Shown here: in pieces, positions 4,639 to 56,111 of the stretch
Numbering within the stretch: position 1 is the first letter of the stretch
Layout of the letters: every line of letters begins with the position of its first letter
Assembly (NCBI GenBank): GCA_943737045.1
Contig: CALSFV010000146.1
Span: 41,369-105,368 of the forward strand
Direction of reading: 5' to 3'
DNA length: 64,000 bases
DNA from: Parapristionchus giblindavisi
Lineage: Eukaryota; Nematoda; Chromadorea; Rhabditida; Diplogasteridae
The notes under the pieces: model-generated
Seen by the model: the letters and a program-made list of their open reading frames with translations, nothing else
What the model was told of the DNA's origin: nothing
Database searches by the model: none
Position numbers and translations under genes: made by a program

Positions 4639-7358
4639 CTAATGATTAAGTTGTAGTGGTATTTGTTCATAGAACCATGGTTTTCCTCCATCTCTTTGAG
4701 TCAGAATCTCACATCCATTATCAGTAACTAGTAACGTCTGTTCGAATTGAGCTGATCGCTTTCCATCACTCTGTAAATATATACAATCATTCCTCTTTTA
4801 AAAAAACTCCATTTGACTATTGTAATACTATCAACGTCATTTAAATGTATTGAATGAATGTGACTCTAAGCCCATCTTTTACTCTCTATCTATCTCACCT
4901 TCCTTCTCTTTCTTATATTCTCACACACTTTCCAATCACGTTCAAAAGCACACGAGAAATGGTGATAGAATGGACGAAAGATGAGAGGGAGGAGGGGACA
5001 GAGAGGAAGAGGAACAAGGGGACATCAATGGTATAGAGACAGAAGATAGAATACTACGAGATATCATGATTAAAGTGCCCTTCTCAATATAGTTCAGATC
5101 AATCGATAATCGAATAACCCTACCGTATCCTCCACAAGTATGACCAAAGTAACTTACAGTAACAGCAGTCCAATCATCAGGCCATCTATCATCGGAGTGC
5201 ACTCCAGCATTGATCATAGGTTCAATAGTGAATGAATTACCCGCTTGCATAACTCCCGGAGTACTATTGCCTGAATCAAGATGAGATTACAGTACTCCCT
5301 TTGTGTTATCATTGTAAATGTTCTCATTGATTGATTATAAGATGGGTTGGAATGATATGAACAAGAAGAAGAAGAATAGGAAAGTGAGTAAGAGGGACGA
5401 GGAACATTGACTAACTACCCCCAATTTAGTTGTTAGATATGACAACGAGGTTCTCAGAATGGCAGACAAAAAGAATCACAATGTTCATGTCATTCCCTCC
5501 CTATTTGGAACACTTGAATTAGTGAAAGGAGAAGAAGAATCTAAGTGGATAAATCTCTAATTCTATTTAGTCACATTAATCACTTTGTACTTACCTGCAT
5601 AATGGGGAATGTTCGGTGCAGTGTGGAAAAGCCTGAAATGAATCATTATTGATTGATTAACTGATTGATCTACTTCGAGAATAAGATGATTATTGAATGA
5701 TATAGAGTTGAACATGACAACGAGACTCTCACTTTCATACAAGCAAGTTTGATCATTCATTCACCCCCCCCCCCTACCTCCCTTCCTCTCTCTCTCTTTG
5801 ATTCAATCATAATCCATGCCATAGATGAACAAGAGTTAGACAATACTAGATAAGATGAGTAGACGAGACGAGTCAATGGCATACTATGAAACATACATGG
5901 GCGGGGGAACTCGATTCTAAAGGGGCATCCGAACAAAAAACGTTTACAAAAGGTTTACAAAGGACATTAAAAAAATTTTTCACATAACATAATTTTTACA
6001 TGGAGTGCATTCCACACAATTTTCGAAAAGTCCTAATTTTACAAGGGACACCCCATGTAGGCGCCCTTGTATGCTATGAAACATATAGGATGGATGAAGA
6101 CGAACCTATGGATGCCGTGTCCACAGAATGTCTTCACAACAGAGAACCCATGGGCATTTGCGTGCTTCTGAATCACATTACCGATCTCACGGAATTTGAC
6201 ACCCGGTCGGACTGAAAAAAAAAACAAATATTTGTTTATGTGATATGTGGAAGTGATATGTGATATGTGGAAGAGTTGAATATTTGGATAAAGGTGAAAA
6301 ACAAGAAACCGATAGCAATAGCTTTCTCCAGACATTCATAAGTTACTCGAACGAGATCTTGACTCTCCTTATCAACCTTGGTTCCTACGAGGAATGTTTC
6401 ATTCAGATCACCATGGAATCCACGATGGAATACGGTAACATCCACTGAAAAAAAGGATACGGTAATTTTTATTGATTGATTGGATATTGTAACCATTGCA
6501 TAGATCGCCATCTTCTAGCTTTCTCATATCAGGAATACCATGACATATGACCTCATTCACTGATGTACAACAACTCTTAGGGAACTTGTAGTATCTGAAA
6601 GCAATGGTGTAATTGACAGATTATGTAGTCTATAGTACCCAAGTGGAGATGGATAACATTCATTCTCAATACAAGCTTCATGTACTGCTCTATCGATCTC
6701 ATCTGTAGTCACACCTGGACCACACGCACGTGCTGCCTCGTTCAGAACCTACATAACATATGTAAACATAAGGTAGACTATTTCGTCATCTTACCGTTCG
6801 TCCTAGCTTGCACGCAACTTTGAGTCCTTCTTGCTCTTCTGGTGTCAGAACCTAGAATGTACATATTGCAGAGTAAAAGATTTGTTAAATAAATATCCTG
6901 GATTTAGAAATGGAACAAAATGGTAACCTTGACAATTCGATTGTTTCTGGCTTGTTGTTCAGAGAATGAAACACCTTCAGGATGAAGAGCATAATCAGGA
7001 CGAGTAATTGCCTCAGGAACAGTACGACGAGCTGATAAACGATGAGGACGAAGTGAACCAGAGAACTAAAGTTTATGATAAATTTATATCTCAAATATAA
7101 AGCATTGTACCTTGAAGTAAGGCCATGGATTGTATTCCTCATTAGGATCAATGTGAAGGGTCTTGTGAATGTTCCAATTGTCCTTGAAGCAAGCCTGAAA
7201 TATTCATTAGATTCTCGAACTAAGGTTAGAACGTTTACTACCTGATTGCAGAAGAAAGCATCGGTGAGCTTCAGTTTAATACATGACGGACATCTGAGTT
7301 TGGCTGGTTTGCCGCAGTCAATTCCTTGGCAGATTCGTCCTTCGAGAATATCTGTCAT
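4639..7358 (-). CDS. Methionine aminopeptidase 1
   Basis: Removes the initiator methionine from nascent proteins in the cytosol. Exons (high to low): 7358-7242, 7194-7111, 7065-6928, 6851-6795, 6748-6639, 6594-6494, 6444-6310, 6211-6106, 5632-5595, 5270-5158, 4770-4639. The N-terminus has the type-1 zinc-finger signature ([17 protein letters not shown], then FFCNQ). The catalytic metal ligands are all present: Asp in VDVTVF, Asp in HGDLNETF, His in [13 protein letters not shown], Glu in FTIEPMI, Glu in [28 protein letters not shown] is the typical substrate-pocket segment. Length is about 380 residues, normal for MetAP1 and without the lysine-rich MetAP2 N-terminus. It is head to head with Rpp21. 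Confidence 0.95.
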
Positions 7359-8387: not shown

Positions 8388-11300
8388 ATGACTATAATGG
8401 AAGGTGGTTCCGTTGAATTAGCGGAAGAAGTGGCTCAATTATCTGTCACGGATCAAGTAGCTCCTAAGAACGGATATTGTAATGTTAGTGTTGCTCCAAT
8501 CAAGAAGGAATTTCTCATCGAGGTATTTGGATCTAAGTTTCAATTGATCAATAAATTATTTGATGATGTAGACTCCATCGGAAGTAGATCAAGATAGTGG
8601 AGTAGTAGAGACGAAGGGTCAAGATAGAAGAGATAAAAGAGATCGTCGAGGAATGAATAAAGATAGAAAGAGGGAAATGGCAAGAACGGAAACGAAAGTA
8701 CGAGCTGCAGCTGTTAGATTATGTCCATCCGTTATACATAATGATGTCAAGTGCAAGTAAGACCATCTTATGATATGTTTAAAAGTTCCGAAAACAAGAT
8801 AACAGAAAACTCCTCCCTTTCGTTGTATTTCTTTCCTTTTTATGGCAGCACCACAATGGACTATATCGATTGATTTTGTATTTTGTTTAGGTTCGGTGAG
8901 AAATGTTCGAGTGAACACGATGTATCAGTCTTTTTGGAGAAGAAACCAGCAGATATTGGTTCAGTCTGTCCTGTATATGAAGCTAATGGAAAGTTAGTGA
9001 ATATTGACTTGTTTATCGTTTTATTATCATTCTCCGTTTATTTTTAATCTGCTTGTTTATCATGTCTTTAATTTTCTAATCTTTCTTATCTCTAGATGTC
9101 GTTTCTCATACGCTTGTCGTTTCGGATCTGCTCATATGGATGCTGATCTCAAGCAGGTATTACTGTAGTTTCAATCAATATTCATTTATTGATTTATTAG
9201 ATGGAGAAAGAACCAACGGTATCGAATGGAGAAGTGAGTAATCATCATTCAATGCATATCCAAGTTGCTATGCGAAAAAGAGAATATGATTTCTCACGAT
9301 CTGAAAAGGTTTGTTATTTTATTTATATTGATATTGTGTAATTCAACTAATAATATTTATCATAATAATAATGCCGCAAACCAAGTGCTTAATAGAACGA
9401 TAACATTGAATTGAAATAAAATAGGAATGATTATGTAGGAGGCTAGGATAATGAAAGATAAATCTGACACGATAATTTGATTATTGCAGGCAGTGGAAGA
9501 GCTGAAAGCAGGAGGAATTCTTCATGAAGGTGCAATGGAATGGGAGAAGAGGAAATTGGATATGAAAACATTGAAGGGAAAGAAATATCTTGCTCCACTC
9601 ACTACTGTTGTATGTTATTTTACTTGTCGTACATCACAAAGATGTTTCAGTAAAATAATTTCGTTATGATTATTCGCTATCATTCATCCTTGGTGGTTTC
9701 ATGTTTCAGACGTTCAATTTGAGCTTTATCTTCTAATCTTGTAGTTGTTTTGAGTATAGTAGAGTCCCTGTTATAGTATTGATACCAGCTAGCCGCTTCC
9801 AATATACCAGGGCTGAGGAATTTTACGATTTTCGTCATTTTTGGAATAATCAGTTAGATATTCTAGGGTAATCTTCCATTCCGTCGTCTTTGTGTTGAAT
9901 TAGGAGCTGAGATCACATGTGGAGAGATGGCATTGGCTACGAGTCTATTAGGAGGAACGCCCAGTGAATGGTACGGTAGAGTTATTGATTGGATTACGGT
10001 AGATGATAAGAATGATGATACTGTAAGTCTACGGTAGTATTATTGATTGATTACGGTAGATGATAAGAATGAGAATATTGTAGGCATAGGTCGAAAAGTA
10101 TGTTACAAAGTACCAAGCCTGACCGGATTTTGAGCGAAAATTTCACAAAAATCGAAAAAGCTGACCGAATTTTGAGCCAAAATTTCACATAAATCGAAAA
10201 ACTTGACCGGATTTTGAGCCAAATGTGCCAAAAATCGAAAAACCTGACCGGATTTTGAAAAGCGATAACCTAGCTATTCAACCTATGACTGTAGGTCTAC
10301 GGTACTGTTATTTCTTGGATTATGGTAGATGATCTGAATGAGGATACTGTAGGTCTCTAGTGAAGCGTCATTCATCTGAGAAGATATTTGGTGTACAAAT
10401 GGCTGGAGGATTTCCTGATACTATGGCTAAAGCAGGACAGATTATCGTTGATGAAATGGAGGTTAGATCCATACATTTTCGGTACCCTCGCCGTCTATTT
10501 TTATATAGTGGGTCAATTCTCGAAATAGGGTGGGTTGATACATAAAGTTCGTTATTTTCGCTTAAAAATCGTCATTTTTAGCTTCCTTTTTTATCAAGTG
10601 GCCTAAAATGGCCCTTATATAGTGGGTCAATCCTCGCACAGCGAGGGTATGGCAATGTATGGTTAGATCTACCTTATCAATTGTCTTATTAACCAGTGCA
10701 TTTTTTTGTCTTTTGTGAAGGTTATCTGATTTCACTATCTCTCTTATAGGTATGATGACATTGATGAATTGAATATTGATAGGTTGACTTCATCGATATC
10801 AATCTTGGATGTCCAATTGATGTAGTCAATCAGAAGGGAGGAGGATGTGCATTAGCTGCTAGAACGAATAAACTAATTGATGTACTCAAGACTATGAGAT
10901 ATGTCATGAAGGATGTACCACTGTTGGTTTCATTTATATCTTATCATATCTTGTATTATATTACGCATAACTTATTAGCTCATTTATATTTCATACATTT
11001 TCGGTACCCTCGCCGTTTATTTTTATAAAGTGGGTCAATTCTCGAAATAGGATGGGTTGATTCATAAAATTCGTTATTTTCGCTTAAAAATCGTCATTTT
11101 TAGCTTATTTTTTTTATCAATTGGCCTAAAATGGGCCTTATATAGTGGGTCAATCCTCGCACTACGAGGGTATGACAATGTATGTTTATATTTGTATTGT
11201 TTCAGTACGATCAAACTACGTACAGGATTGAAAGAGAATGAGTTAACAGCAGATAAGACATTGAGAAGTATATTGGATAAAGTTCCATTTGATCTTATTG

Positions 11301-13573
11301 ATTTCCATCCACGATCCAAGTTAGATTTTATTATCTTCTTTTATATTATACAATAAGGCTTTAGTCATTCTTTTGAGTCTTGATCATATGTCGAAAAGTA
11401 TGTTACAAAGTACCAAGCCTGACCGGATTTTGAGCTAAAATTTCACAAAAATCGAAAAACCTGACCGTATTTTGAGCCAAAATTTCACAAAAATCGAAAA
11501 GCCTGACCGTATTTTGAGCCAAATTTGCTAAAAATCGAAAAACCTGACCGGATTTTGAAAACAGATAACCTAGCTATTCGACCTATGGTCTTGATAATTG
11601 GTCAAATTATTATTTACTATTTTCTTTTTTTGCTTGCCTTCGTTTACTCTATCAAAATTTATCCTATATATTTAGTATTTTCATTTTGAATCGGTCTCAA
11701 TAATTGAATTGAATTAAGGGAACAACGGTATACGAAGCAGGCTAGATGGGACTTTGTTGAGAGGATTGCACAAGCTGCTCAAGAAGTACTAATAGTCATA
11801 ACTTATTTATGTTATCTAAATATATTTTATCAACCGCTTTCATTAAATTGAAGAAACAATGATTATTCTGGTTATGTATACAATAATTGAATTGAGGTTC
11901 CTCTATGGGTATGTGGTGATGTTCTCAGTTATGAAGACTACTATAATCGGCTTAAGAATAATCCTATCGATGTAAGTTTTAAAAAGTGTAATTTGCTAAT
12001 TTAAAAAAAAAAGAAAATCGAGAACAAATACATCGAAATTGACAAACATGCCGTTAGAGAAATCGCTGATTTGAAAGTTTCTATGCTTATCACAGTAAGG
12101 CGCCAAAGCTGCTTGTTTGATTTTTAGAAGTTAATTATTTTTGTACTCTTATTCTACTATTTTTTTGCTCTTTGCCGGTTTATATTAATTCTATTCCAAT
12201 TTAACTTCTTTACTTCTTTTTTACCAGTGGTCGTATGCAAGAACAACGGGAAAACCGTTTTCCGGGAAAATGTGACGTCATTAGCGTAGGCGGAGGATTT
12301 TTAGAAAACGCCTCCGCCTACGCTAATGACGTCACATTTTCCCTGAAAACTGTTCTTGCATACGGCCACAGTTCACATCTATCTATTAATATGTATTTTA
12401 TAGGGTATTGTAATTGGTCGTGGAGCTCTCATTAAACCATGGATATTCACTGAAATTGATGAGAAGAGACATTGGGATATCACTGCCACTGAGAGAATTG
12501 AGATGCTACACAAGTATCTTTCATTTATTTATTTATCCTTTTGTTTCAATATTGTTATATACAATTTAATAGAAAAGTGATTGTGAGAAGCACCGGCGAC
12601 ATTTCGGTTTATGGCTCTTTAAAAAAGATTGGAAACTCGAAATCGTCCGGTTTCCAAGCTTTACAAAATCAACCGGAAACTCGAAATTTGAATTCGCGGG
12701 CGCGAATAAGGTGCGGGAATTCAAATTCTGACTTTCCGCCATCCAATTTCTGCGTTTTAAAAATGTAGCATGTCTGGAATTTCTTTTTCAACTTTTAGAT
12801 CTCGGATCTCTCTGCAAATTTCAATTTCCGCACCTTATTCACGCCCGCGAATTCAAATCCACACCATACATTGCCAAACTCTCGCAGTGCGAGGATTGGC
12901 CCACTATATAAGGCCATTTTAGGCCACTTGATAAAAAAAATTAATCTAAAAATGACGAAAAATGACGAAAATAACGAATTTTGTGAATAAACCCACCCTA
13001 TTTCGAGAATTGGCCCACTATATAAAAATAGACGGCGAGGGTACCGAAAATGTATGATCCACACTTTTTAGAGAGCTATTAATCACTATTTCCTATTCGC
13101 TTATCTCGTTATTCGTGTGTTCATATTTGTATATTATAGATTTGTAAACTATGGATTGGATCATTGGGGAAGTGATGATACAGGAGTAGAGAAGACTAGA
13201 CGATTCCTATTGGAATTGTTATCATTCCAATGTAGATATATACCTGTTGGACTATTGGAAAGAATACCACAGAAGATTAATGATAGACCACCATTCTATA
13301 GGTATACACAATACACTAATATATCATATTATTCGTCTTATTCCTAATAACAATAATAATTATTATTATACGTATTGATCAAATTTTATTTATGTTAATG
13401 ATATTTATTTATTTAATATAATTCCATTTATATATTTCAGAGGTCGATCAGAGATGGAGACTTTACTGTGTAGTCCTCGTAGTTCAGATTGGGTAGAGAT
13501 ATCCAAGATGTTCCTTGGTCCTCCTCCCGAACAATTTGTATTCATTCCTAAACATAAGGCCAGTGCATACTAG
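8388..13573 (+). CDS. tRNA-dihydrouridine synthase 3 (DUS3-like)
   Basis: FMN enzyme that reduces a uridine in the tRNA variable loop to dihydrouridine. Exons: 8388-8522, 8572-8756, 8891-8992, 9096-9156, 9201-9308, 9490-9609, 9867-9975, 10361-10461, 10783-10922, 11206-11319, 11719-11785, 11897-11971, 12404-12513, 13140-13301, 13441-13573. Two CCCH-type zinc fingers precede the catalytic domain (RLCPSV...CKFGEKC, and [20 protein letters not shown]). The catalytic part reads [43 protein letters not shown] with the active-site Cys, IKLRTG, DFHPRSKEQRY, and [13 protein letters not shown]. The C-terminus ends in the usual FIPKHKA. Introns 7, 8, 9, 10, 12 and 13 hold repeats, listed separately. The intron-10 boundary gives one-base frame shifts if misplaced; the CT|GTTGGT donor keeps the frame. 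Confidence 0.93.
10086..10286 (+). mobile_element. MITE-like element M1, copy 1 (201 bp)
   Basis: Starts ATAGGTCGAAAAGTATG and ends in TTCAACCTAT, an inverted copy of the start. The inside is three to four tandem units of about 41 bp, each carrying CTGACCGGATTTTGAG and ATCGAAAA. It lies in DUS3 intron 7. Two more copies of exactly 201 bp are at 11386 and 28338. Confidence 0.8.
10470..10661 (+). mobile_element. MITE-like element M2, copy 1 (192 bp)
   Basis: Ends are CATACATTTTCGGTACCCTC and GAGGGTATGGCAATGTATG, an imperfect inverted pair. Inside are two TATATAGTGGGTCAAT motifs. It sits directly after the DUS3 exon-8 donor, so the donor GTTAGATC is followed by the element. Confidence 0.8.
10992..11184 (+). 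mobile_element. MITE-like element M2, copy 2 (193 bp)
   Basis: Near-identical to the copy at 10470 and in the same orientation, in DUS3 intron 9, ending 22 bp before exon 10. Confidence 0.8.
11386..11586 (+). mobile_element. MITE-like element M1, copy 2 (201 bp)
   Basis: Same ends and tandem core as the 10086 copy, same orientation, in DUS3 intron 10. The 5' end reads ATATGTCGAA, one base different from the other copies. Confidence 0.8.
12230..12366. mobile_element. Foldback element in DUS3 intron 12
   Basis: Two arms of about 60-70 bp, starting GGTCGTATGCAAGAAC and ending GTTCTTGCATACGGCC, pair almost without mismatch around a loop of a few bases near 12300. Each arm carries TGACGTCA and TAGCGTAGGCGGAGG, so it is much more G+C-rich than the host intron. 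The left arm has a few extra bases (ACGGGAAAACCG). Confidence 0.75.
12686..12860. repeat. G+C-rich inverted repeat in DUS3 intron 13
   Basis: GAATTCGCGGGCGCGAATAA near 12690 is matched in reverse by TTATTCACGCCCGCGAATTC near 12836. The arms are about 40 bp with a spacer of about 90 bp. It directly abuts the M2 copy at 12865, and the two insertions may be nested or adjacent. Confidence 0.6.
12865..13056 (-). mobile_element. MITE-like element M2, copy 3 (192 bp), reversed
   Basis: Starts CATACATTGCCAAACTCTCG and ends GTACCGAAAATGTATG, the reverse complement of the 10470 copy. It lies in DUS3 intron 13. Confidence 0.8.
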
Positions 13574-27400: not shown

Positions 27401-28708
27401 TTCCTGATGTAAGTATGAAAAGATCAAAGATCAAAGATCAAAGATTAATATGATCAGGTGGAGAAGGCAGTATCGATGATGTATAAGAATACAATGCCTG
27501 ATGGAGGAGGTTATTCAAGGTATCAAACAAATAATATTGATTGATTTAAATGGTTCTATTAGATTCCTCTACTCAAACGATGTGGTCGATAAATGGATGA
27601 GACAATTTGTTCTCCTTCTCAATGTGAGTCTACAGTAATCATTGGATTACGGTATTCAATCAATCGATAATGAATACATTACAGGTTCCTCGTTGTATTC
27701 GTGTAGCAGTATCATATCTATTAGATCTTGTCTCACCTCAATTGGCTCTTGTAGCGAGATCTAATGTAAAGACTCTTGAAGATGTACGATACAATCAAGA
27801 ACTCACTGATATCTACAAGACTGAGGTATACGGTAGTATTCATTGATTCAGAGACTTACGGTATTTGTTAATTTAGTTCACCAATTACTGGAAGACACTT
27901 GGAATTGATGCTCTTGTGTGTCCATCGTTCACAGGTTTGTAAGCTTTAATAATCAATACTACCGTAATCGGTGATACAGTAATCTAAACTATTGATTGTT
28001 GATTACAGTAACAGCAATGGGTCATCAATATCCATCACAATTAACTCCATGTGCATTTGCCACTGGTCTATTCAATCTAGTTGACTTCCCATGTGGTTCT
28101 GTTCCTATTGGAAGAGTAACTAAAGAAGATGATAATAGAATACTCGATGAAACTTCATTCCCTGTTGGTAAGTCCTCATTCTACCCTTACGATCTCTTCA
28201 AAAGTCACGAAAAAAAATTTTAAAATGTTTTTCTTACTTATCTCATGTATTCAAGGTAAAAATCCTATTCTGAAGCTGATGAGAGATGGTTGTAAGAACA
28301 GTGCAGGACTACCAGTGACTGTACAGGTACGGTAGACATAGGTCGAAAAGTATGTTACAAAATAATAAGCCTGACCGGATTTTGAGCCAAAATTTCGCAA
28401 AAATCGAAAACCCTGACCGGATTTTGGTCCAAAATCTCACAGAAATCGAAAAACCTGACCGGAATTTGAGCCATGTTTGTCAAAAATCGAAAACCCTGAC
28501 CGGATTTTGAAAACCGATAACCTAGCTATTCGACCTATGACGGTAGATATGGATTACGGTAGGAAAGATTAAAGATCAATTGTAGGTAGTAACTCTTCCA
28601 TTGGAAGAAGAACTGTGTCTCAATGTGATGGCAACAATAGAGAGATTATCTCATTATGATACTCGTATCGCTGGAGAACATTCATCTACTGCTACTGCAA
28701 GTCCTTGA
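24434..28708 (+). CDS. faah: Fatty-acid amide hydrolase (amidase signature family), two alternative first exons
   Basis: Hydrolyses N-acylethanolamines and related lipid amides. Alternative first exons 24434-24556 and 24975-25070 both end in phase 0 and join the same acceptor. Shared exons: 25143-25222, 25284-25363, 25552-25619, 25721-25867, 25918-25979, 26122-26182, 26238-26305, 26573-26711, 26934-27047, 27096-27232, 27330-27408, 27458-27519, 27563-27623, 27685-27825, 27877-27934, 28009-28167, 28257-28326, 28586-28708. Catalytic Lys is in [22 protein letters not shown] holds the cis-Ser, and [15 protein letters not shown] the nucleophile Ser. Position -2 to the nucleophile has Leu-Leu-Gly where Gly-Gly is common. 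The C-terminus has [18 protein letters not shown] and [25 protein letters not shown] lies near 28901. The upstream first exon encodes a transmembrane segment; the downstream one does not. Confidence 0.93.
28338..28538 (+). mobile_element. MITE-like element M1, copy 3 (201 bp)
   Basis: ATAGGTCGAAAAGTATG to ATTCGACCTAT with the same tandem core, in the last FAAH intron, 12 bp after the donor. Again exactly 201 bp. Confidence 0.8.
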
Positions 28709-30877: not shown

Positions 30878-33398
30878 ATGACGTCGTTGCTGCCACTTGA
30901 TAACACAACTGAGAACGCTCCTCCCGCTAAGAAAGCCAAGATCATCGAGTGTGCAGACAAACCGCCAAAGGTAATTATTTATTGATCAGTGTACTTTATC
31001 TGTTTGCACTTGCTCTCTTTGCTTCTTTTATTCTTTTACTTATATCATGATTGGCATAGCTGTTTTTGTTCTCGTGGAGCGATTAGCCTGTAATATTATC
31101 ATTGATGATCACCGAACTAATATGAAATAACCTTTGTAGTACTTTGTTGTAGTTTCACGGGTTCAGTAGAATTTGGTATCAACTGGAATGATTATATTAC
31201 ATTACTTAATCGGTAATTGTTTAACCATAGCTGTAGCGCTGCTCTTCGTGTTATCAATGGGTCTCTGTGCAGTAGGGATCAACTGAATGGAGTCATTGAT
31301 TATATTCGTTCGTTCATGTTTAATATGTTAATTAACTCACCATCGCTGTTGCGCTACTTTTAGTGTGATCTACTTGCTTTGAAGCCGTTGGAATCAACTA
31401 GAATTATTATCGTCTATGTAACTGTATTCAATTGTCTACCAACCATAGCTGTAGCAGAACTCTTAGTCTGATCAATAACATTCTGTTTCACTTTAGTCTC
31501 CATGGTTTCACGAGCGTTTACTCGATGAATCTAAATTAGTCATGGAAACAGAATATAATATAGTGCGACCGTACTTCCTTGGAGACTTCGATGAATGGTT
31601 TGAATACAGCCGGAGTGAATGGACCTGTACGAGTAGATCATTGAAGATATCGATTGATTAAGTACCAGAAGCTAGAGCTGATTGAAGTTTAAGTGGAAAA
31701 TGTCCACGACGATCGATGAGATCTGCAGATGGACGATAACGTTGAACTTTAGCACATCCACCTCAATTATCGATTGATTATATTGATTAGAAGAATGAAT
31801 GAGTGATACCAAGCATGGATAGATTAGTTGATCGTTGTTCGTCAGTTCCTTCACCGACATCTTCATTCTCGAACGATTCATCAATAGGACGAAATACTTC
31901 AGCCAAAGTCTTCTCCTTCTTATCCATTCAACCGATCTTATTCAATGAAGGAGATACAAATGACTACATATCAATGTCTCATCATCGTCTAATTGATTTG
32001 TCTTCTCTCATTACATAATATCGTTATGTAATATTGATTGTTTCATAGATGAGAATGATTATTTTTGATGTTATATCATGCGAGATGAGGTAGTAGTCGT
32101 CGAATATGTGGGATGTGATGAGATTGAAATGTTTGTATTGGTAAGAATAATGGATGTATGAAGTTGTCATGGATACAATAGGAAATGATATTGAAGAAGA
32201 TAGATTATGAGATGAGATTATGTAGTGAGTGAGTCTGTCAGATGGAAGATGAGTAGATGAAAGTTATCCCATTCTATCTATACAACATAGTTGACAACTA
32301 GTCGTCCTCATATCTTCTCTTCTCTCAATGTATCGAAGATTTATGCTCATCGAATTGAAGGTACCATTTCATATATAGAATACAAAAGAGATAATCTCTA
32401 TGGGACTAGTTACTATGTAAAATGGAGATGGAATATCGAATAGTTGATTTAAAAATCTAAACATTGTTTTCTAACTTTGTTATTGTTAACCTTTCGTGTT
32501 GGTAACAAGTAGGTCAGTAGATCGAATTGCATAGAAATTCTAGAAGGAATTAGTCATATTGAATCGATAAGGAAGAGATAGGTTGATAGAGGGAAGAGAA
32601 GGGAAGGGGGAACCCCCTGCAGTGGAGGAATTCATATTCTTATTCATTCTACTAAGGAGTGTTCATTGAATATATCAAATCTCTACTACTAGTAGTCTGT
32701 ATGTCTATTCCTCTCTCCACTATGTTTGTTGTCCCTACTCTCTACTCTCACTCTTCTTCACTCTCACTTCAACTCTCGTCACTCGTCCACTCTCTAACAC
32801 TCTCCACTCTCTCCATTTCATACACACTCTCATTTGTCATCCTCTCTCCCCACTTCGACTCCCCCTTCCCCTCTCTCCTCTCCCTTCAACGTTCTTCCAC
32901 TTTTTGAATATTCCTCCATATTCTCTTCTTCCTCTTTCTATTCTATATGAGTCCTTCTCCTCATTCCTTCCTCTACTTGGAATGAACATTACATTCATTG
33001 ACTACTCTTCTTATTTCATAACTCTCAACCTTTCCTTTCTTCTTCGTTCGTTTGAATGGATCCATAGTTCAATGGTACATTGTACTTACTATCGACTATG
33101 GACATTCTCTACCTCTCTCTCTCCTCTCTCCATTCTCTTCCTTCTCCATTCCCTTATCTATCTCCATCTTCAATTATTGTCACACTAACATGTAGTTCTT
33201 CACAAGTCTGACATCATCATTTTGTGTGGTAACAATGTTCTTTAGCTTTGTCATGGATTCAATGGAATTTGCATATGAACTGTCTGACCATAATGTTTAA
33301 TTATAATGTAGTCATAGGTATTGTCATTGTGTAAACTCTGATTTATATCTTGATGGTGCGGTATGACAGATCTCTATCTCCCTCTCTCTCTCTCTGTA

Positions 33399-33471
<73 letters not shown>

Positions 33472-36400
33472 AGTGGGGATTTATCTGATTGTACCACAAT
33501 GGTCATATTGATGATGAGTCATGATAATCCCTCTCATTTTCATTGTTTATCTACACGTATCTCTTTATATTCTAATTATATTTGCTTAGATTCATTTGAT
33601 TTATCATTATATATATATTGATCATGATCGTTGATAATATATTGAGCTATCTCTAGGTCTACACACTTTGCTCAGTTTCCTGTATCTTTAAATATTCGGA
33701 TTGATTAATGGAAACACTTTTACCTTATGATCTTGATGAATGAATGAATGATGGTCATTATTTAGGAGCAGTCGTTTGCGATAACTGAGAGTTCAATGGA
33801 CGAATCATGTCATAGAAATGTTCATAATGGAAATGAAAAGAATGGAAAGGATGAAGAGAATGGAGGAGGAACACTCGATAAGAATCTATACTCTAGACAA
33901 ATGTAAGTAGTATTGGATTGATATCTGGTGGGTTCATGTTTCATCCACAATCCATTGTCCCTTACTTTCTGTTCTATCCAATAATTATCCATTTCAAAGT
34001 ACGCATAGTACTATAAAACATATCATGATATACTTTTAGCTATGCTCTTGGTGAATCAGCAATGATGCATCTTCGTGAAGCCTCTGTCCTCATCTCTGGA
34101 ATGAGTGGACTTGGAGTTGAACTCGCCAAGAATCTTATCCTTGGAGGTTTGTCCTTATATATCTGTATTCTTATACCTCAGTGGTATTCTGACGGCTATA
34201 TTATGGCTTAATGTTTTCCTTGATCTATCTTTAGTTTACGATAGATTTGGAGATTACTTTATAATCCCTTGTATGTTTACCTCTTCTCTCTCTCTTCTAG
34301 GTATTCGTCATGTTTCCATTCATGATACAAAGACTGCAACATGGCACGATCTCTCTGCACAATACTACATCAAAGAGGAAGATCTGGGAAAGAATCGTGC
34401 TACTGCATGCTTTGAGAGGTACGGTAGATGTGTGATGATAGTGAGTCGAAAAATGGGTCAATTTAATGATTGTTGGTGTTGTAGATTGGCCGAGTTGAAC
34501 GACAGTGTCACAACTTCAGTCAATACTAATGAATTGACGAAGGAATATGTATCTGGATTTGATGTAAGTAGTTAGTTGATGTCATCTCATTTGATTATCT
34601 TACCATTAACATCATGATGTCTCGCACATTAAATGTCTTTTTCATCATGTCATATTAAGTGTTTACTCTTCATATAGTCATTTAATTATTTATTTGTGAT
34701 ATTCAGCTCGCAATTCTCTGTGATGCTCCTCGCTCCCTCCAACTCGCTGTGTCAGAATGGACCAGAGCTGCAGGCAAAAGGTACGGTAGATGGAGAATAC
34801 TGTAATTTTATTAATCATCGATTATTGATTATTCTCCTTTTAGACTTCTGGTCGCTGATGCTCGTGGTCTTTTCTCATATGTCTTTGTTGATTGTGGAGA
34901 GAGCTTCCGAGTTGATGATGCTAATGGAGAAACTTGCAAGGAGGTATCGTAGTCGTTGATTTATTTATTTATTGATTGATTGGGGATGAAATTATTGATT
35001 GATTGTTTTCAGTTCCACGTTGAGCACATTGATGCCGATTCTGGAGATGTGATGACTCTTGAGAATGCATTCCATGGACTTGAGGTTAGTGAATGAGATT
35101 GATTGAATGAATAGGTTGATAGATAGATAGTCTCGGTTGTTTTATGTTTCACATTATTGTTAATTATTCATCCATCATTCTTGTTAGTGTTCCTCACTTA
35201 CATGGGAACGATCGGGCCGTACATTTCTCAATATCCTCGAAAATTTGAGGGTACACTAAGTCGAACGCGCTGATTTCAAATCCGTTTTCAAAACCTGCCA
35301 GTTCCTTAGGACAAAGAAGTTACAGGACGTCAAAGTTTGAGCCAAGTTTTTCCATGCTCGCTATGAGCAGCACTCTGGAGAGAACTAGACAAGCAGCGGT
35401 GGTCGAGTGGGGTAAGGCGGTGGGTTGAGGTATTACTTACACTGGTTCGACCCCTTGCTGGTGCAAATGTTTTGCACTTTTTTCTAAACTTTGTATTGTA
35501 TCAGGTTGTGTTAGAAAGTCCGGTACATTTTGAGGGTATTTTTGCTGCGATGTCGCTGTTCGTGTAAACATCTGATCTAATTCACCATAGGTGGGATAGA
35601 GAGTGTGAACATCTCTTATTCTTTTTCACTAGGCCCACAAGTCAACAGTATTGTCCACGAGCAATGGCGGTTGTTTTACTTCCGTCAGTTTTTCACTTTG
35701 GTCATGACCTCATATTCCCGCAATTCTCAAAGCTAAAAGAGAAGGCTGGGGAAAACCAAATCAACACCGTGTACGGCGAGAAGTCCATCGTCCATCACAT
35801 GCTGAGCAAATCGTACCAATTGTTCAAGAAGGAGTGCGACCTCGAAGACCAGCCGAGGTCGGGTCGTCCCCTTTATCTGTATTTGGACCTTTTGCGGAGA
35901 ACGTTGGAGAAGAGCCCATACCAGACCACCCGCAATATGGAGCAGGTTCTTGGGGCCTCCCATGCTACTATTGTCCTCGAATTGGAATCTGTCGGGAAGA
36001 CTAAAAAGTTTAGAAGAAAGCTACCCCATACCCTGACCGATTTCGACCGTCAGAGGAGGGTCGACACGTCGTTGAAACTCCTCAGCTCCCATCGCCGGTT
36101 TGAATGACTCGATCAAATCATGACTGGCGATGAGAAGTGGGTGTTGTATTCTAACGTTGGACCCAAGGGCGGGTGGCTCAGTTCCGGCGTAACCCCACAC
36201 CCCGTCCTTCATGCCGAAATTGATGGCCAAAAACAGGTGTGGTGGTTGTGGTGGTCTGTCCGTGGCATTGAGTATTGGGAACTGCTAAAGCCTGGTAGCA
36301 CCATCGACACCAATGTCTACATTCATCAACTACGTAGCCTGAAATCTCATTTCGATTCCGCCTGGGGAAGTACAGCACAAATATCATTTCTGCATGACAA

Positions 36401-39400
36401 CGCCAGATAAGACTCCACGACAAAGAGCAAGAACGAGCTATCGTTGTATGGCTGGTCCTTCCTACCCCACCCAACCTACAGCATGGACCTAGCTCCTTAT
36501 GATTACCACCTATTCTCCGACCTTCAACGCCATCTCGATGAGCACGACTTCCAGAATGAGACCGACCTCATTCGCGACATCGCCCACTATTTTGGCTCTA
36601 AGTCCTCGGAGTGGTAGGCAAGTGGGGCCCTGGCCCTGCAGGTGAGATGGAGGAAGGTCATCGCTGTTGATGGCCAATATCGATGATCATTCGCTTGTCT
36701 ATTACTGAGATGCTGGATAAACAAGTTTGACCAAAAAATGTACCGGACTTTCTAACCAACCTAATACTTTGATCTTACACTGTTGTGTTACAGTAACCAA
36801 ATAATTTTATTAGCACGTGTGGTAATCGATGACAAAGCACTTGAAACAGAAATTTTTTTGGCAAGTGGGGCATAGAATGAATGACATTTTGGGGCAGCTA
36901 GCGATGTCACAACTGGCATCTGTCAGCCTCTTGATGTATTCTTCTTTCGGCCTTTCAAAGGAGTTGTTCTTCGAATTCAGTTCCGATCGTTCCCATGTTA
37001 GTTCTACTCGGAGTATAAAATAATGATTGATTTGTAGGATGGAGATCACGTAACCTTCTCTGAGGTAAAGGGAATGACTGAATTGAACGAATGCACTCCC
37101 ATCAAGATTACTGTAAAGAGTTAGTATTGATTTATTAGTAATTGCATTGATTGAATGATGATTTTCCAGAGCCCCATATCTTCAACATTGGTGATGCTGC
37201 AAAGACAGCCTCTGCTTATATTGAGGGAGGAAGAGGACGTCAAGTCAAGGTATACTGTATCGATTATTGATTGATTTATTGATATGTTTTTTAATGTATC
37301 TGTTTAGGTTCCATTCAACATTTCGCATAAGTCATTGAGTGAGTCATTGGCTGAACCAGACTATGCCATCTATGACTTTGCCAAGTTTGATTATCCTGAT
37401 AAGCTTCATGCTCTATGGACTGCATTGTATTCATTTGAAGAGAAACATGGACGGTTTGTCTATTATCCTATTAAATGTGAAGTATATTATGAAAAGCATG
37501 TTAATGTACTAATGAAAGTAGATAAGCCCCACTGTTTCGACTATATGTTATAGGGGGGGGGGGAATCTTATCCTTCTTTGATCCTTATATAATGTAATTG
37601 TGTTAATTCAGTTCTCCATCTCCTCGTTCCCTCTCCGATGTTGAACTCCTCAAGGCTGAACTACCTCAGGGAGCTGAAGTCAATGAGGAACTCCTCAAGC
37701 TATTCTCATTCTCGGTAAGCTCTTATAGCTCCCTACAAGACTGTTTCATGCAATTATCGATTGATTACAGGCTACCGGCAACCTTGTTACTGTATGCTCT
37801 GTCGCGGGAGGTATCGCTGCCCAGGAAGCGATGAAGGCTGTCACTCACCATATGACTCCTCTCAAACAGGTATACTGTAATATTGATTATAATCACTGGA
37901 TTATCGATTGAATGATTATATCGATTGATGATTATTATAGTGGTTGTACATGGATGCAGCAGAAGCAGTACCCGGTCAATGGACTGTACTCGATAATGAG
38001 AAGTTGACAGAGGAAGATTGTAAACCAAGAGATAATCGATATGATGGACAAGCTGCCGTATTTGGATGGACATTCCAAGAACAATTGTTGAAACAGAGGT
38101 GAGTAGGAGGGAAGGGGGGGGGCTGGTGGATTTGTGTTTCATGATAGTGTCATAGTCGACTGATAATGATGAAGCTGATAATAATCATAAATAAAAAATA
38201 AGTCGTGATCAATCTGGCACGTTTCACAATAAGTGGTTATTGATAATTCCTCCAAATATACGACAACGTTATTAGTATTGCTATATAATTATAATGTGTA
38301 TATTATAGATGGTTCATCGTTGGTTCGGGTGCAATTGGATGTGAACTATTGAAGAATATGGCTATGATGGGAGTAGGATGTGGTGATGGAGGACTCATTA
38401 AGATTACTGATATGGATCAAATTGAAATATCTAATCTCAATAGACAATTCCTATTCAGAAGAGCTGATGTTGGAGTGAGTTATTCATTATTTGATTGAGA
38501 TATTGATTGATTGATTAACTGTAATCAATAATGTGTCATTGCAGAGTAAGAAGGCCGAGGTTGCAGCACGCGCTGTTCAGCAGTTCAACAAACATGTATT
38601 GTTTTGTCTTTATATATTTGTTATTCATATTGATTGATTGAAGGGATTATTGATTGATTAAGGTGAACATTGAATGTCTAGCAGAGAGAGTTGGAGCTGA
38701 TACTGAATCAATCTTCAATGATGACTTCTTCTCACAACTAAATGGTGTTGCTAATGCACTCGATAATGTTGATGCTCGTGAGTAGATTGATCGATTGAGT
38801 ACAATATATTGATGATTATCGATTGATTAATTTAGGTCGTTATATGGATCGTCGTTGTGTATACTATTCTCTTCCTCTACTTGAATCGGGTACGATGGGA
38901 ACGAAGGGAAACACTCAAGTTGTCTATCCTCATCTCACTGAGAGTTATGGGTACGATATCATACTGTAGCCCGATATCGATTTATTGATTGATTGTAGAT
39001 CATCTGCCGATCCTCCAGAGAAGGAAGTTCCCTTCTGTACTCTGAGAAACTTCCCCAATGAGATTAATGTGAGTGGTCCTATATGAAATGTCTACTAGAC
39101 CGTTTACCATATCTGTCCACGTATTGATTGATTATCAATGTTCCAGCATACGATTCAATGGGCTCGTAATCTATTCGAAGGAGTATTTCTCTGAACCTGT
39201 TGAGACTGCCAATCGATTCATTACTGATCCTAAGAAGTTCTTGGAGAGTGTCACACAAATGAACACTCAACAACAGGTATATGATAGATGAGAAGAGTAC
39301 GGTAGTCTTACTGTAATCACTCCCGTTTAGTTGGATGTATTGTCTAGTGTAAAGAAACTTCTGATTGATGAGAAGCCGAAGAATGCTGAGGATTGCATCA

Positions 39401-41221
39401 AGTGGGCTAGACTTCTATTCCAGGTAATAATGATCACGCATTGATTAGTTATATGAATGATCGAATTTTCTTCTTTTTTTTCATTATATTGTATTCATTA
39501 AAATATATCGTTTCGGAAACAGTAATGAGTGATTACATTCTAGGATGGTCATCATGACAGTATTGCTCAAATGCTCCATGCCTTCCCTCCTGATCAAGTT
39601 ACTGATATGGGAAGTGAAGTTCTGGTCTGGATTGAAGAGATGTCCTCATGTACTCAACTTTGATCCTTCTCAGGTAATATCACTATCTATTGATCTTTGA
39701 TCTTTAAATCTTTGATCTCTTATAGGAAGCTCATCTTGATTTGGTCTATGCTGGATCAATCCTTCGATGTGAAGTGTACGGTATCGAGCCCATTCTTGAT
39801 AGAGAATTAGTTGGAAAGATTGCTGCTGCCATTGAGGTACTGTATGATTATAAGAGATCAAAGATCAATATTGTGATTGTAGGTGAGGCCATTCAAACCT
39901 CGTGATGGAGTCAAAATTGCTGTCACTGATGAGCAAGCAAAGGAGCAGGGAGGCAATGTATGTAGATATATTGATTGATTAATTAGATGATATGATTTGA
40001 TTCATTGATTATATTTAGGTTGAAATGGAAGGTGATAGTGAGGAACTCGTTGAGGAGATCAAGAGAAAGCTTGCTCTTCTTGATAGTTCTACTCGTGTGC
40101 TTACTCCTATTGATTTTGAGAAGGTTTGCTTTACTTTCATATTTTTATAGCTCTGCCATATAATTTCCCGTTTCAAACTTTTTTAACTTGAAGCTTTCCA
40201 TCACATAGTAATGAGTACTGTGTTGATCTTTTTACATGATTCAAGTTTGATAATTTAGGATGATGATTCTAATCACCATATGGAGTTTATCACAGCTGCT
40301 AGCAATCTTCGTGCTGAGAACTATGATATTCCTCGTGCGGATAGAATGAAGGTATGCGATCGCTCTTTATATTGTACTACGTCCATCAAATCATCATTAC
40401 TACTTGTCAATTGATGATTAGTTATTAGCATCTAATCATTATTTTGTCTTTGAGACGAAACAAATCGCTGGTCGTATCATTCCTGCTATTGCCACCACTA
40501 CTGCTGCTGTATCCGGTCTCGTATGCATTGAATTGTATAAGACGGTCAGTTGGATTATACTGTAGAAAATATTATTGATTTATGATGTAGTGATTGTGAT
40601 TACTGTAGCTGTTCTCTGAGTACTTGGAAATGAGTGAATGAATGATTGTAGGTAGTAGCTGACTCTGAACAGGGAGTAGCCCATCCTCCAATGGATCGAT
40701 TCAAGAATGGATTCATTAATCTTGCCCTTCCATTCTATGGATTCTCTGAACCTATTGCTGCACCTAAGAAGAAATATATGGATAAGGAATTCACTCTATG
40801 GGATAGAATTGAGATTAAGGGACCTCTTACTCTTTCTCAACTCAAGGAACGAGTCGAGAAGGTACGGTAGCCGTTGACTATTGATTGAGTGAATGAATGA
40901 TTGATTGATTATAGCAATGTGGAGTAGAGATTGGAATGATCTCTGCGGGTGTCTCTCTCATATACTCTTTCTTCATGGATGCTAAGAAACGTGCGGCACG
41001 TGAGGGAACTGAGTAAGTATCGTAAACTATCTCGGATTACTGTAATCGATTTCTACCGTAATCTCATGTGTTATTTCAGAGTGCGTACAGTAGTTGAAGA
41101 AGTGACTCGAGTTCCTCTTCCTCCTCATGTGAGATCATTGGTATTGGAAGTAATGGCTAGTAATCCAGAGAATGATGAAGATGTAGAGATTCCTTATATC
41201 AAATATGATATTCTTCTATAG
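30878..41221 (+). CDS. uba-1: Ubiquitin-activating enzyme E1 (UBA1), with two frame breaks
   Basis: Adenylates ubiquitin and loads it on a catalytic Cys for E2 transfer. Exons: 30878-30970, 33766-33902, 34040-34146, 34301-34418, 34485-34563, 34707-34780, 34844-34943, 35013-35084, 37038-37119, 37170-37249, 37308-37453, 37612-37714, 37771-37869, 37941-38098, 38309-38474, 38545-38595, 38663-38777, 38836-38950, 38999-39068, 39147-39276, 39331-39423, 39544-39673, 39726-39836, 39883-39957, 40019-40123, 40259-40351, 40455-40544, 40652-40861, 40915-41012, 41080-41221. Seen: [22 protein letters not shown], the ATP loop [25 protein letters not shown], the catalytic Cys in [25 protein letters not shown] and the ubiquitin-fold end. 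Exons 20 and 22 are each one base too long (near 39186-39195 and 39611-39620). Exon 1 carries APPAKKAK, nuclear-signal-like; exon 2 has its own ATG at 33799. Confidence 0.94.
31040..31927 (-). CDS. Unknown gene nested in UBA1 intron 1, built from duplicated exons
   Basis: I do not recognise this protein. Eight exons on the opposite strand read in one frame from ATG to TAA: 31927-31810, 31761-31666, 31624-31575, 31530-31444, 31397-31341, 31282-31226, 31182-31132, 31087-31040. All junctions are GT-AG. The N-terminal half ([57 protein letters not shown]) looks like an ordinary soluble protein, with no signal peptide or membrane helix. Then come module exons ending [30 protein letters not shown], each later one starting LIPTA or LIPNS. 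Exons 5 and 6 are both exactly 57 bases and in the same phase; exon 7 is a diverged 51-base version. About 185 residues. Expression is unproven; the consistent frame across eight exons is the main support. Confidence 0.68.
32590..33190. repeat. Pyrimidine-rich stretch in UBA1 intron 1
   Basis: A long CT-rich tract with many CTCTC and TTCTC words. It opens frames of up to 94 codons that are low-complexity Ser/Leu and have no splice context, so I regard it as non-coding. Confidence 0.6.
33402..33469. repeat. (TA)n microsatellite after (CT)n
   Basis: About 34 TA units, preceded by CCCTCTCTCTCTCTCTG from 33380. The minus-strand frame across it is a Tyr-Ile repeat artefact. Confidence 0.95.
35393..35464 (+). 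ncRNA. tRNA-like sequence (degenerate)
   Basis: TGGTCGAGTGG (35400-35410) fits a pol III A box and GGTTCGACCCC (35444-35454) a B box, 33 bases apart. A TTTTTT run follows at about 35478. The acceptor arms pair poorly and the anticodon arm is not convincing, so it is a pseudo-tRNA or a tRNA-derived SINE head rather than a working tRNA. Confidence 0.5.
35501..36764 (+). mobile_element. Mariner transposon, full length but inactive
   Basis: 1264 bp bounded by TA on both sides. The 5' end TCAGGTTGTGTTAGAAAGTC and the reverse complement of the 3' end TTAGGTTGGTTAGAAAGTCC form the inverted repeats, continuing into CCGGTACATTTT. It lies inside the 35201-36997 element, so it arrived later. It is clearly more G+C-rich than its surroundings. 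Confidence 0.93.
35664..36686 (+). pseudogene. Mariner transposase, broken by three in-frame stops
   Basis: One reading frame of about 341 codons with no frameshift but nonsense codons TGA at 36105, TAA near 36408 and TAG at 36615. It has the [11 protein letters not shown] linker after the helix-turn-helix region. The three catalytic Asp survive: ITGDEKW-like [18 protein letters not shown], and LAPYDYHLF, with 34 residues between the second and third (DD34D, the mariner signature). The frame ends with [11 protein letters not shown], as normal for the family. The N-terminal first 30 codons are weak, so the start at 35664 is tentative. Confidence 0.9.
36832..36975 (-). pseudogene. Cysteine-rich transposon-type zinc-finger remnant
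   Basis: Minus-strand frame ending in [20 protein letters not shown], then [18 protein letters not shown] and VIDYHTC with a stop. The C-x4-C-x7-C-x2-C-x4-C-x2-C-x4-H layout resembles the C-terminal zinc fingers of cut-and-paste transposases (piggyBac and relatives). It is a fragment, cut off by the element end, and probably the coding remnant of the outer TIR element. Assignment to a superfamily is not possible from this piece. Confidence 0.45.
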
Positions 41222-41630: not shown

Positions 41631-44600
41631 CTAGTTGTTTGTACCATTTTCGATATCTACTAGAACTTTGAGTACGGCTTCTTCCCAATATGGAGGAGCA
41701 GCTACTTGAACGCCTAGTGGAATACCAATCGAATCCTGAGATTATTGATTGATTGGTACTTTTCTGATGGAACAGTACATCGCAAGAGAGAAACTTGTAT
41801 GAAAGTTAGGAGATCTTGTTTGCACTGTTTATTTTTTTAAATTTCAGATTTCACGTGATCAATTTGGCAAAAATGGTAAAAAATACGCACAAATCTTATT
41901 GTTAAGCCTAACACCCATGGTCATGGAGACGATTACGGTACAGTAATCTACAGTACCTTTGAATAGTTCTTAGCCATCTTGTACCATACATCTGTAGTCG
42001 GATAGTTCTCTAGATTCTTCTCATCCTCTTCACTCCATTGTCCAGTCTATAATCAATCGATATCTATCAACTACCGTAATCTTATAAAATTCAAACCTTG
42101 CAAACTCCTGCACCGAAATCGAGAAGATTGAAGATGGCAGTGTATGAGACTCCACACGAGAGATGAATGGGACCTTCATGGGGTGGAGCAGGCATCACCT
42201 GATATATTATTGATTAGGTCTAATAAATCAATAAATCAATCAATACATTTGCTGGACAAAGAAGGATATCAACGTTGGCTTTCTGCATTTCTTTTATGAA
42301 TCGAGCACGATATGCTTCAATAGCTGCGTAACTCTCACGAAGTTCTGAAGATTACTGTAGATTATTGATCAATCGATAATGACTACAGTATACCCGAAGT
42401 GGTAAGAGCCATAGATTGGGAGAGTTTATGAATTCTACTGTATCCAAGAAGATTTGCGATGACACCCGCTAATCTTTGAAGAAGAATAGGAATACGAAGG
42501 GGCATCAAAGCAGTTAGAAAGACTGGAGGAGGAATATCCTGAATTATTGATTGATTGGGAGATCAAAGATCAATCGATACATTCTCAATCTTATCCATGA
42601 GGTACTTTCCACCATCAACACAAACTGAACGAACGAATAGACGATAAACTTCAGGAACATCAGGAGGATGGAATGGAACTACCGTATGACCTAAGATGAT
42701 TACGGTAGTTATTGAGGGTGTACGGTAGATCAAGAATACGGTACCTTTAGCTTCAAGGATCTTCTTAGCCTCAAGGACCATTCGTGAACAACCAGGAGTA
42801 GGAGTGAACCATCCATCATCAGTGTAGTATCCTACAAGTAATATGTTGATCTTTCATCTTTGATCTTTGGTCTCTCTAACCAATGCGATAGGTCTTCTTA
42901 GCATCAAAGAGTTCATCTCTCCATGTGACGGGAGGTACGTAAGGGTCTCTATCAGAGATCCAATGAGATGACCATAGATGTCTATAACGAAGAGTACTGT
43001 AGATACAGTAATCAAGGATGGGTTACGGTACTTTAGAATATCAGCACAAGTCTTGATGGTAGGTGCCATAGGTCCATCACTAGCATTGATGAGAGGACGA
43101 CCGGGAACTGATCCAATAACTCCAGCAGATGAGAGACGAAGATGTGATGGCTAATATATTCATTGATCCTAATCAATCAATAAATCAATAAATGAGTACC
43201 TTAATAGCGGCAGTTCCGGTATAATGAGCGGGAATTCGAACTGATCCTCCGACATCTCCACCAATACCAATAATCGATCCACCAGCACCGATTATAGCTG
43301 ATTCACCTCCTGATGAACCTCCAGGTGTACGGCCTTTCTTATGAGGATTCTCTGTCCAACCTGATATCGATTTATTGATTGATTTATCATTATCGTTTCT
43401 CTCTCGTATTCGTCAGTAATATTCCTAAACAGTCTCTCTCACTACACCTCATCTACCAATCCATCGGAAATTGTTGACGGTAATCTATTATAATACATGT
43501 GTCTAGCTAAATACCTGTTGCTATAAGCTCTCATAGATCGATAAATTAAAAAAAGATAAGTACGTGTTGATTGATTAATTTACTTACCATAGATAGAGTT
43601 GCCACAAGTATATGATAGAAGTGAAGTGGGAACGTTAGTCTGGACGAAAGGAATGCATCCTGCAACGAATTAGATTGATTACGGTAATCGATTATCGATT
43701 GGAAAACATACCTAATTCTTTAAGTTGAACAACAAGAAGAGCATCTTCAGTGGCTGGACTACCAATGCATGCAGCATAACCACGAGTTTGATCGTATCCT
43801 TTCACCTGAAAAGATCAAAGATCAATTAGATGATGATGAAAGATGAAAGATCAATGAGATGAGGATGAAAGATGAAAGATCAATGAGATGAAATATGAAA
43901 GATCAATGAGATGAGGATGAAAGATGAAAGATCAATGAGATGAGGATGAAAGATGAAAGATCAATGAGATGAAATATGAAAGATCAATGAGATGAGGATG
44001 AAAGATGAAAGATCAATGAGATGAGGATGAAAGATGAAAGATCAAATACCTTATTGCATTCCTTGATTGATATAGGTATTCCAAATAGAGGTGGTTTCTT
44101 CTCTCCATTCTTTACTCTCTCATCCCATTCTTCCGCCCATTTACGAGATTCCTGTATAAATGAAACATCTCAAATCACATTTAGAGAAATTTGTTATTTT
44201 TGTGCGTACTACATATGTAGTCATTTTGTAGCTACACTTCAATAGAAAGATATACATATGAAAGAGAGAATTATGAGAGACAATCAAATAGAATTCATGT
44301 GAACAACATAGAAAACGATTATGATTCTGTGACTTATGCACACAATCCATACATATTCAAGCACATATTCGATAATCAAATGAAATACTATAATACGTAT
44401 GCATCGAAACCATTTTGAAACTATTTTGTCAGAGTTCACTAAAACAGACTACAATTGTTACACAAAATGGCATACCTTTATGAATAGAGTAATACAATTG
44501 GTCTTTCTATGAGCCTTGAGAGCAAGTCCATAGTATGTAGTGAGGACATCGGAAGCTGTGACGTCACCCTTCTGAAGGGCTTCTAGAACATGAAAGATGA

Positions 44601-52828: not shown

Positions 52829-56111
<3,283 letters not shown>

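Follow-up and report, generated by a model that had tools for sequence, protein, structure and literature searches.

A lineage-restricted gene predicted antisense within uba-1 intron 1 of Parapristionchus giblindavisi carries tandemly duplicated exons under protein-level constraint

In Parapristionchus giblindavisi, a small protein-coding gene is predicted to lie antisense within the first intron of uba-1, with which it was probably inherited from before the Pristionchus split, and short motifs appear to have multiplied in its tail, which would make the protein multivalent. We put the probability of this reading at about 0.8. On the minus strand of the window (the whole 64-kb stretch of DNA that was analysed) eight exons of 118, 96, 50, 87, 57, 57, 51 and 48 nt (exons 1 to 8) were spliced into one open frame, which runs from 31927 to 31040, encodes 187 aa and ends with a TAA stop. 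All seven introns (41-58 bases each) follow the GT-AG rule, and the rebuilt model agrees with the preliminary description of this DNA, which had reported an eight-exon frame with its splice sites and stop intact. The exons of UBA1 were placed by tblastn with the P. fissidentatus UBA1 (P0005) as query and the host gene was traced exon by exon on the plus strand from 30878 to 41218.

30878..30970 (+): UBA1 exon 1, placed by tblastn
30971..33765 (+): UBA1 intron 1, 2,795 bases, GT at 30971-30972 and AG at 33764-33765; contains the nested gene
33766..33903 (+): UBA1 exon 2, placed by tblastn
33766..41218 (+): remainder of UBA1 from exon 2 to the C-terminus, placed by tblastn
31810..31927 (-): nested gene, exon 1; start codon 31927-31925; conserved N-terminus MxK..KTLAEVF.PIDESFE.ED
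31666..31761 (-): exon 2; conserved block KxQRYRPSAxxIDRR
31575..31624 (-): exon 3; conserved block PFTPxVFxP
31444..31530 (-): exon 4; first DQTKSSATAM at its end
31341..31397 (-): exon 5, 57 bases; LIPTASKQVDHTKSSATAM module; phase 0-0
31226..31282 (-): exon 6, 57 bases; LIPTAQRPIDNTKSSATAM module; phase 0-0; duplicate of exon 5
31132..31182 (-): exon 7, 51 bases; divergent module LIPNSTEPVKLQQSTTK; phase 0-0
31040..31087 (-): exon 8, with the stop codon; its C-terminal RTKTAMPIMI matches the end KTALPIPI in Pristionchus
30978..30983 (-): candidate poly(A) signal AATAAA, one of two (the other at 31032-31027)

With UBA1 exon 1 running up to 30970, exon 2 beginning at 33766, and GT and AG at the two edges of the interval, the nested gene lies entirely in UBA1 intron 1, near the 5' end of this intron. 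Its complete coding region (31040-31927, minus strand) is contained in a single host intron (30971-33765, plus strand) on the opposite strand, which makes it an opposite nested gene, as had been proposed. The two candidate poly(A) signals are weak, because the five AATAAA found in the 3,888 bases of L008 correspond to chance expectation. No RNA family was found in the 64-kb window at gathering scores.

Several other features of the window were recorded. Between UBA1 exons, at 35568-36614 (+), there is an element which we take to be a mariner-type transposon; its frame is interrupted by stops, a Transposase_1 domain was detected in 36108-36407 (E 4e-14), and when 35500-36700 was searched against the genome, scoring 40 of the 91 candidates yielded at least 44 match rows with identities of 82-100%. 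A 42-base tandem unit (CCTGACCGGATTTTGAGCC...) occurs nearly identically at 10118-10258, 11418-11558 and 28370-28510, with 3.4 copies each, and these three places are probably part of one dispersed repeat. An 81-base tandem repeat (2.9 copies, 97% matches) is located at 43810-44045. The minus strand carries a protein kinase coding stretch at 53067-53549 (Pkinase, E 5.7e-10) and a zf-C6H2 zinc finger at 6885-7358 (E 2e-9), a domain with which methionine aminopeptidase 1 begins.

The rebuilt exons reproduce the repeated sequences for which this locus had been singled out, namely three exon ends reading D-x-T-KSSATAM (DQTKSSATAM in exon 4, DHTKSSATAM in exon 5, DNTKSSATAM in exon 6) and three exon starts reading LIPTA (exons 5 and 6) or LIPNS (exon 7). 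When all six frames of the window were inspected, SSATAM was found in these three places only, once in each minus-strand frame, so that the copies are joined by splicing alone. LIPT or LIPN was found in the window in these three exons and at 13337, 18897 and 15982. The idea of repeat modules holds for exons 5 and 6 in full; exon 7 (51 bases) keeps the module start only, and exon 4 belongs to the module with its last 30 or so bases, its remainder lying outside.

That exons 5 and 6 are both exactly 57 bases long and in the same phase was confirmed (phase 0), and their adjacency, likeness and 0-0 phase agree with the proposed tandem exon duplication. The two exons differ at 19 bases (38 of 57 identical) and at 5 residues (14 of 19 identical); 14 codons differ and in 9 of these the residue is kept. 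The comparison of silent and replacement differences that had been suggested as evidence of selection on the frame gave, by the method of Nei and Gojobori, 12.5 of 12.7 synonymous and 6.5 of 44.3 replacement sites differing (pS 0.99, pN 0.15). In a neutral simulation restricted to stop-free pairs that differed at 19 bases, and assuming equal substitution rates and one hit per site, five or fewer residue changes were seen in one of 56,782 pairs started from exon 5 (1.8e-5) and in one of 66,951 pairs started from exon 6 (1.5e-5). Divergence of the silent sites together with so few residue changes indicates that the duplication is old and that its products are constrained; judged from these codons, exons 5 and 6 are old duplicates under purifying selection. 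A recent duplication of an exon together with its intron was considered and found unsupported, as the synonymous sites are saturated and the flanking introns measure 46, 58, 43 and 44 bases (sizes compared).

For exon 4, the last ten codons differ from exon 5, and likewise from exon 6, by 7 bases and 1 residue, and 3.5e-4 and 4.6e-4 of the simulated pairs were as good, figures that are generous because this stretch was picked after being seen, whereas those for exons 5 and 6 use whole exons. Among the module differences is serine encoded by TCT versus AGC. Over 57 bases, exon 4 compared with exon 5 or 6 gave pS values of 0.58 and 0.52 and pN values of 0.42 and 0.39, and thus its likeness is limited to the exon end.

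Exons 5, 6 and 7 are multiples of three with phase 0 on both sides, so that gain, loss or skipping of a copy keeps the frame. Any of them could be omitted from a transcript, and mutually exclusive splicing is known to arise from duplicated exons (PMC9741552, PMC6071210). It is possible, if somewhat doubtful, that the duplicated exons serve cassette or mutually exclusive splicing and yield isoforms with different tails and not a fixed longer tail. However, phase symmetry is also required for a plain exon duplication to survive; being needed under both readings, it does not discriminate a fixed tail from alternative splicing. Alternative splicing is compatible with the multiplied tail motifs of our preferred reading, and the odds of the two do not sum to one.

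Searching the databases with the nested protein, we found four homologues with E up to 10 among 1,269 candidates, all from Pristionchus. They are PRIPAC_82968 of P. pacificus (E 6.1e-25; BLASTP covers 83% of the query), PFISCL1PPCAC_16694 of P. fissidentatus (E 1.3e-23), PMAYCL1PPCAC_19044 of P. mayeri (E 1.5e-23) and PENTCL1PPCAC_18570 of P. entomophagus (E 1.5e-20); the latter three records are marked partial and their BLASTP query coverage is 45-47%. The preliminary description had named the lack of a conserved frame in a related species as grounds for refutation; homologous proteins recorded in four Pristionchus species show that such a frame exists, and the proposal passed this check. In the multiple alignment, the four homologues show 45-48% identity to the nested protein, whereas that of P. 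pacificus is 80-84% identical to the other three, which places Parapristionchus giblindavisi probably outside these four Pristionchus species. The start and the front half are conserved across the family, with invariant columns in the front half. Like the nested protein, the homologues have the same start and front half (RYRPSAxxIDRR, ASGPFTPxV), but they are recorded with 140-159 aa (three of the four being partial) and lack the KSSATAM/LIPTA expansion, compared with 187 aa for the nested protein.

A profile built from the five sequences retrieved no further homologue with E up to 10 among the 7,994 candidates scored; these candidates were the proteins sharing most words, so that a relative must share short exact words to be among them. 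Within the scored candidates of the searched database, the family has no homologue outside Pristionchus and Parapristionchus giblindavisi. The preliminary description could not place the protein; it can now be assigned to this family, which is known here only from these nematodes. A search of the genome (251 Mb, 703 contigs) yielded no second copy among the best candidates scored and returned this locus alone.

Two of the homologues, P0002 and P0004, start upstream of the conserved Met. According to PMC7992802, the 2021 PPCAC annotations were derived either from P. pacificus proteins or from transcribed frames, some of them partial. A start before the Met is unexpected in a model copied from P. 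pacificus, and P0002 and P0004 are therefore probably transcript-derived, provided that the same pipeline was used for the later assemblies.

The similarity extends to the very end of the protein. The last 12 residues of the nested protein, STRTKTAMPIMI, match the Pristionchus ends SKMDKTALPIPI, SKMTKTAQPIPI and SKMERTALPIPI with 7, 8 and 6 identities, and 1, 1 and 7 of 20,000 shuffles were as good; this comparison comprised three of the four Pristionchus sequences, P0003 being omitted as its record is one residue short. The end reads KTAxPIPI or RTAxPIPI in the three Pristionchus records that reach it and KTAMPIMI in the nested protein. When the entire C-terminal part was aligned, the match was clear for P. 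pacificus (0 of 2000 shuffles as good) and weak for the other three species (91, 198 and 267 of 2000 shuffles for P. entomophagus, P. fissidentatus and P. mayeri, respectively). On one reading of these alignments, the KSSATAM/LIPTA module may derive from the common C-terminal motif (TA followed by IP).

Among the four Pristionchus records, P. pacificus alone carries a doubled 18-residue C-terminal unit, RSPSKMSRMDKTALPIPA followed by RSPSKMSKMDKTALPIPI. This doubling resembles the situation described here in that a C-terminal unit was gained in tandem in the same protein, but its unit has 18 residues compared with 19 here, its sequence differs from KSSATAM/LIPTA and it is known at the protein level. 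Since the sequence is different and the doubling is missing from the other three Pristionchus records, it is probably a separate event, and the same tail has thus been lengthened in two lineages, probably separately. A bolder proposal, which we consider rather unlikely, is that the tail is a hot spot at which short binding motifs are gained repeatedly and independently, with 19-residue exons added in the Parapristionchus giblindavisi lineage and an 18-residue unit in P. pacificus; selection would then adjust how many binding motifs the disordered tail of this young, uba-1-nested gene offers (its valency). Under the same proposal, the hydrophobic I-x-I at the common end could be a PDZ-type ligand.

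The records of two Pristionchus species also bear on the association with the host gene. In P. fissidentatus, UBA1 is PFISCL1PPCAC_16692 and the homologue PFISCL1PPCAC_16694, on contigs equal in size (45,728,744); in P. entomophagus, UBA1 is PENTCL1PPCAC_18569 and the homologue PENTCL1PPCAC_18570, again on contigs equal in size (48,146,603). The record numbers are adjacent in P. entomophagus and two apart in P. fissidentatus. For P. pacificus and P. mayeri, no named UBA1 was present among the 120 matches listed. Adjacent or near record numbers and contigs of equal length in two species suggest that the linkage to UBA1 is probably old; if record numbers follow the chromosome, the nested gene has probably stood beside uba-1 since the common ancestor with Pristionchus, and the Pristionchus homologue would be expected inside the uba-1 intron as well.

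Such a linkage, here deduced for two Pristionchus species, would also suit a gene that matters mainly through the act of its transcription, which would modulate uba-1, the protein being secondary. The available part of PMC12274878 reports that ceh-10 of C. elegans induces its host polq-1, and counts 567 opposite nested pairs. In the present case, however, the constraint on the modules and the protein similarity across species indicate that the product itself is selected, and we regard this explanation as improbable. Least of all do we expect a chance antisense prediction, that is, a spurious frame opposite UBA1 without a product: although such artefacts are known among Pristionchus orphan genes (PMC7992802, as far as its text was accessible), the frame lies in an intron and not opposite UBA1 exons, four Pristionchus species have homologues with E values between 6e-25 and 1.5e-20, the best of which is not to be expected by chance in a database of 5.8 billion proteins, and the differences between exons 5 and 6 are mainly silent, so that this candidate was ruled out. 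Taken together, the sequence comparisons indicate that the nested frame is a real and constrained protein-coding gene, which is presumably expressed in Parapristionchus giblindavisi.

As to the properties of the encoded protein, no Pfam family was found at the curated cut-off (below it, CER1-like_C at E 0.017 and Tla3_N at E 0.15), and among solved structures there was no convincing relative, the PDB matches (E 0.24 to 0.56 and 0.53) being at chance level. AlphaFold2 modeling of the P. pacificus protein (P0001) on a 4-row alignment gave no usable fold (pLDDT 53, pTM 0.09); models from so few rows are often weak anyway, and the low scores fit disorder without proving it. The charge-hydropathy line speaks against disorder by a small margin, since mean hydropathy is 0.439 for the protein, compared with 0.425 at the line, and 0.440 for the tail, compared with 0.437, which puts both just inside the folded range. 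The tail (residues 84-187, 104 in total) contains 27 Ser/Thr and 15 Lys/Arg; Trp, Tyr, Phe and Cys are absent from it. From the AlphaFold2 model we consider the protein probably disordered, and its tail is most likely a flexible segment of repeated short motifs.

The preferred reading of a nested coding gene with multiplied tail motifs would then work as follows. The protein would combine a conserved front half with a tail of short repeated motifs in a probably disordered chain. Duplication of a small phase-0 exon has added motifs to the tail, and an extra or missing exon 5, 6 or 7 would leave the frame unbroken. Most likely, the tail would serve as a multivalent segment for binding or phosphorylation (K-S-S-x-T-A), and the copy number of its motifs might set the affinity.

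The locus is a compact example of a nested gene confined to one lineage in which the duplicated modules are themselves under protein-level selection, and it could help to study how proteins of this type acquire additional motifs, Pristionchus being a genetic model genus. In a literature search with subscription papers mostly outside its reach, no work joining Pristionchus and uba-1 was found, and the accessible part of PMC12274878 mentions Pristionchus only for ceh-10 and polq-1.

Nesting, restriction to a lineage and the tandem duplication of exons are each of a known, ordinary kind. Orphan genes have already been studied in Pristionchus, and titin PEVK and elastin are cases of tandem exon duplication. 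Opposite nested genes are common, with 567 pairs in C. elegans (PMC12274878, available in part). From the same portion of that paper it can be seen that ceh-10, like the nested gene, lies antisense in an intron of another gene, polq-1, and is conserved there across species; the ceh-10/polq-1 pair is reported from all six nematodes analysed there, whereas our searches recovered the nested gene from Pristionchus and Parapristionchus giblindavisi alone. Known tandem exon duplications, as covered in the accessible part of PMC9741552, resemble exons 5 and 6 in that symmetric exons are copied in frame, but the module described here is very short (19 aa).
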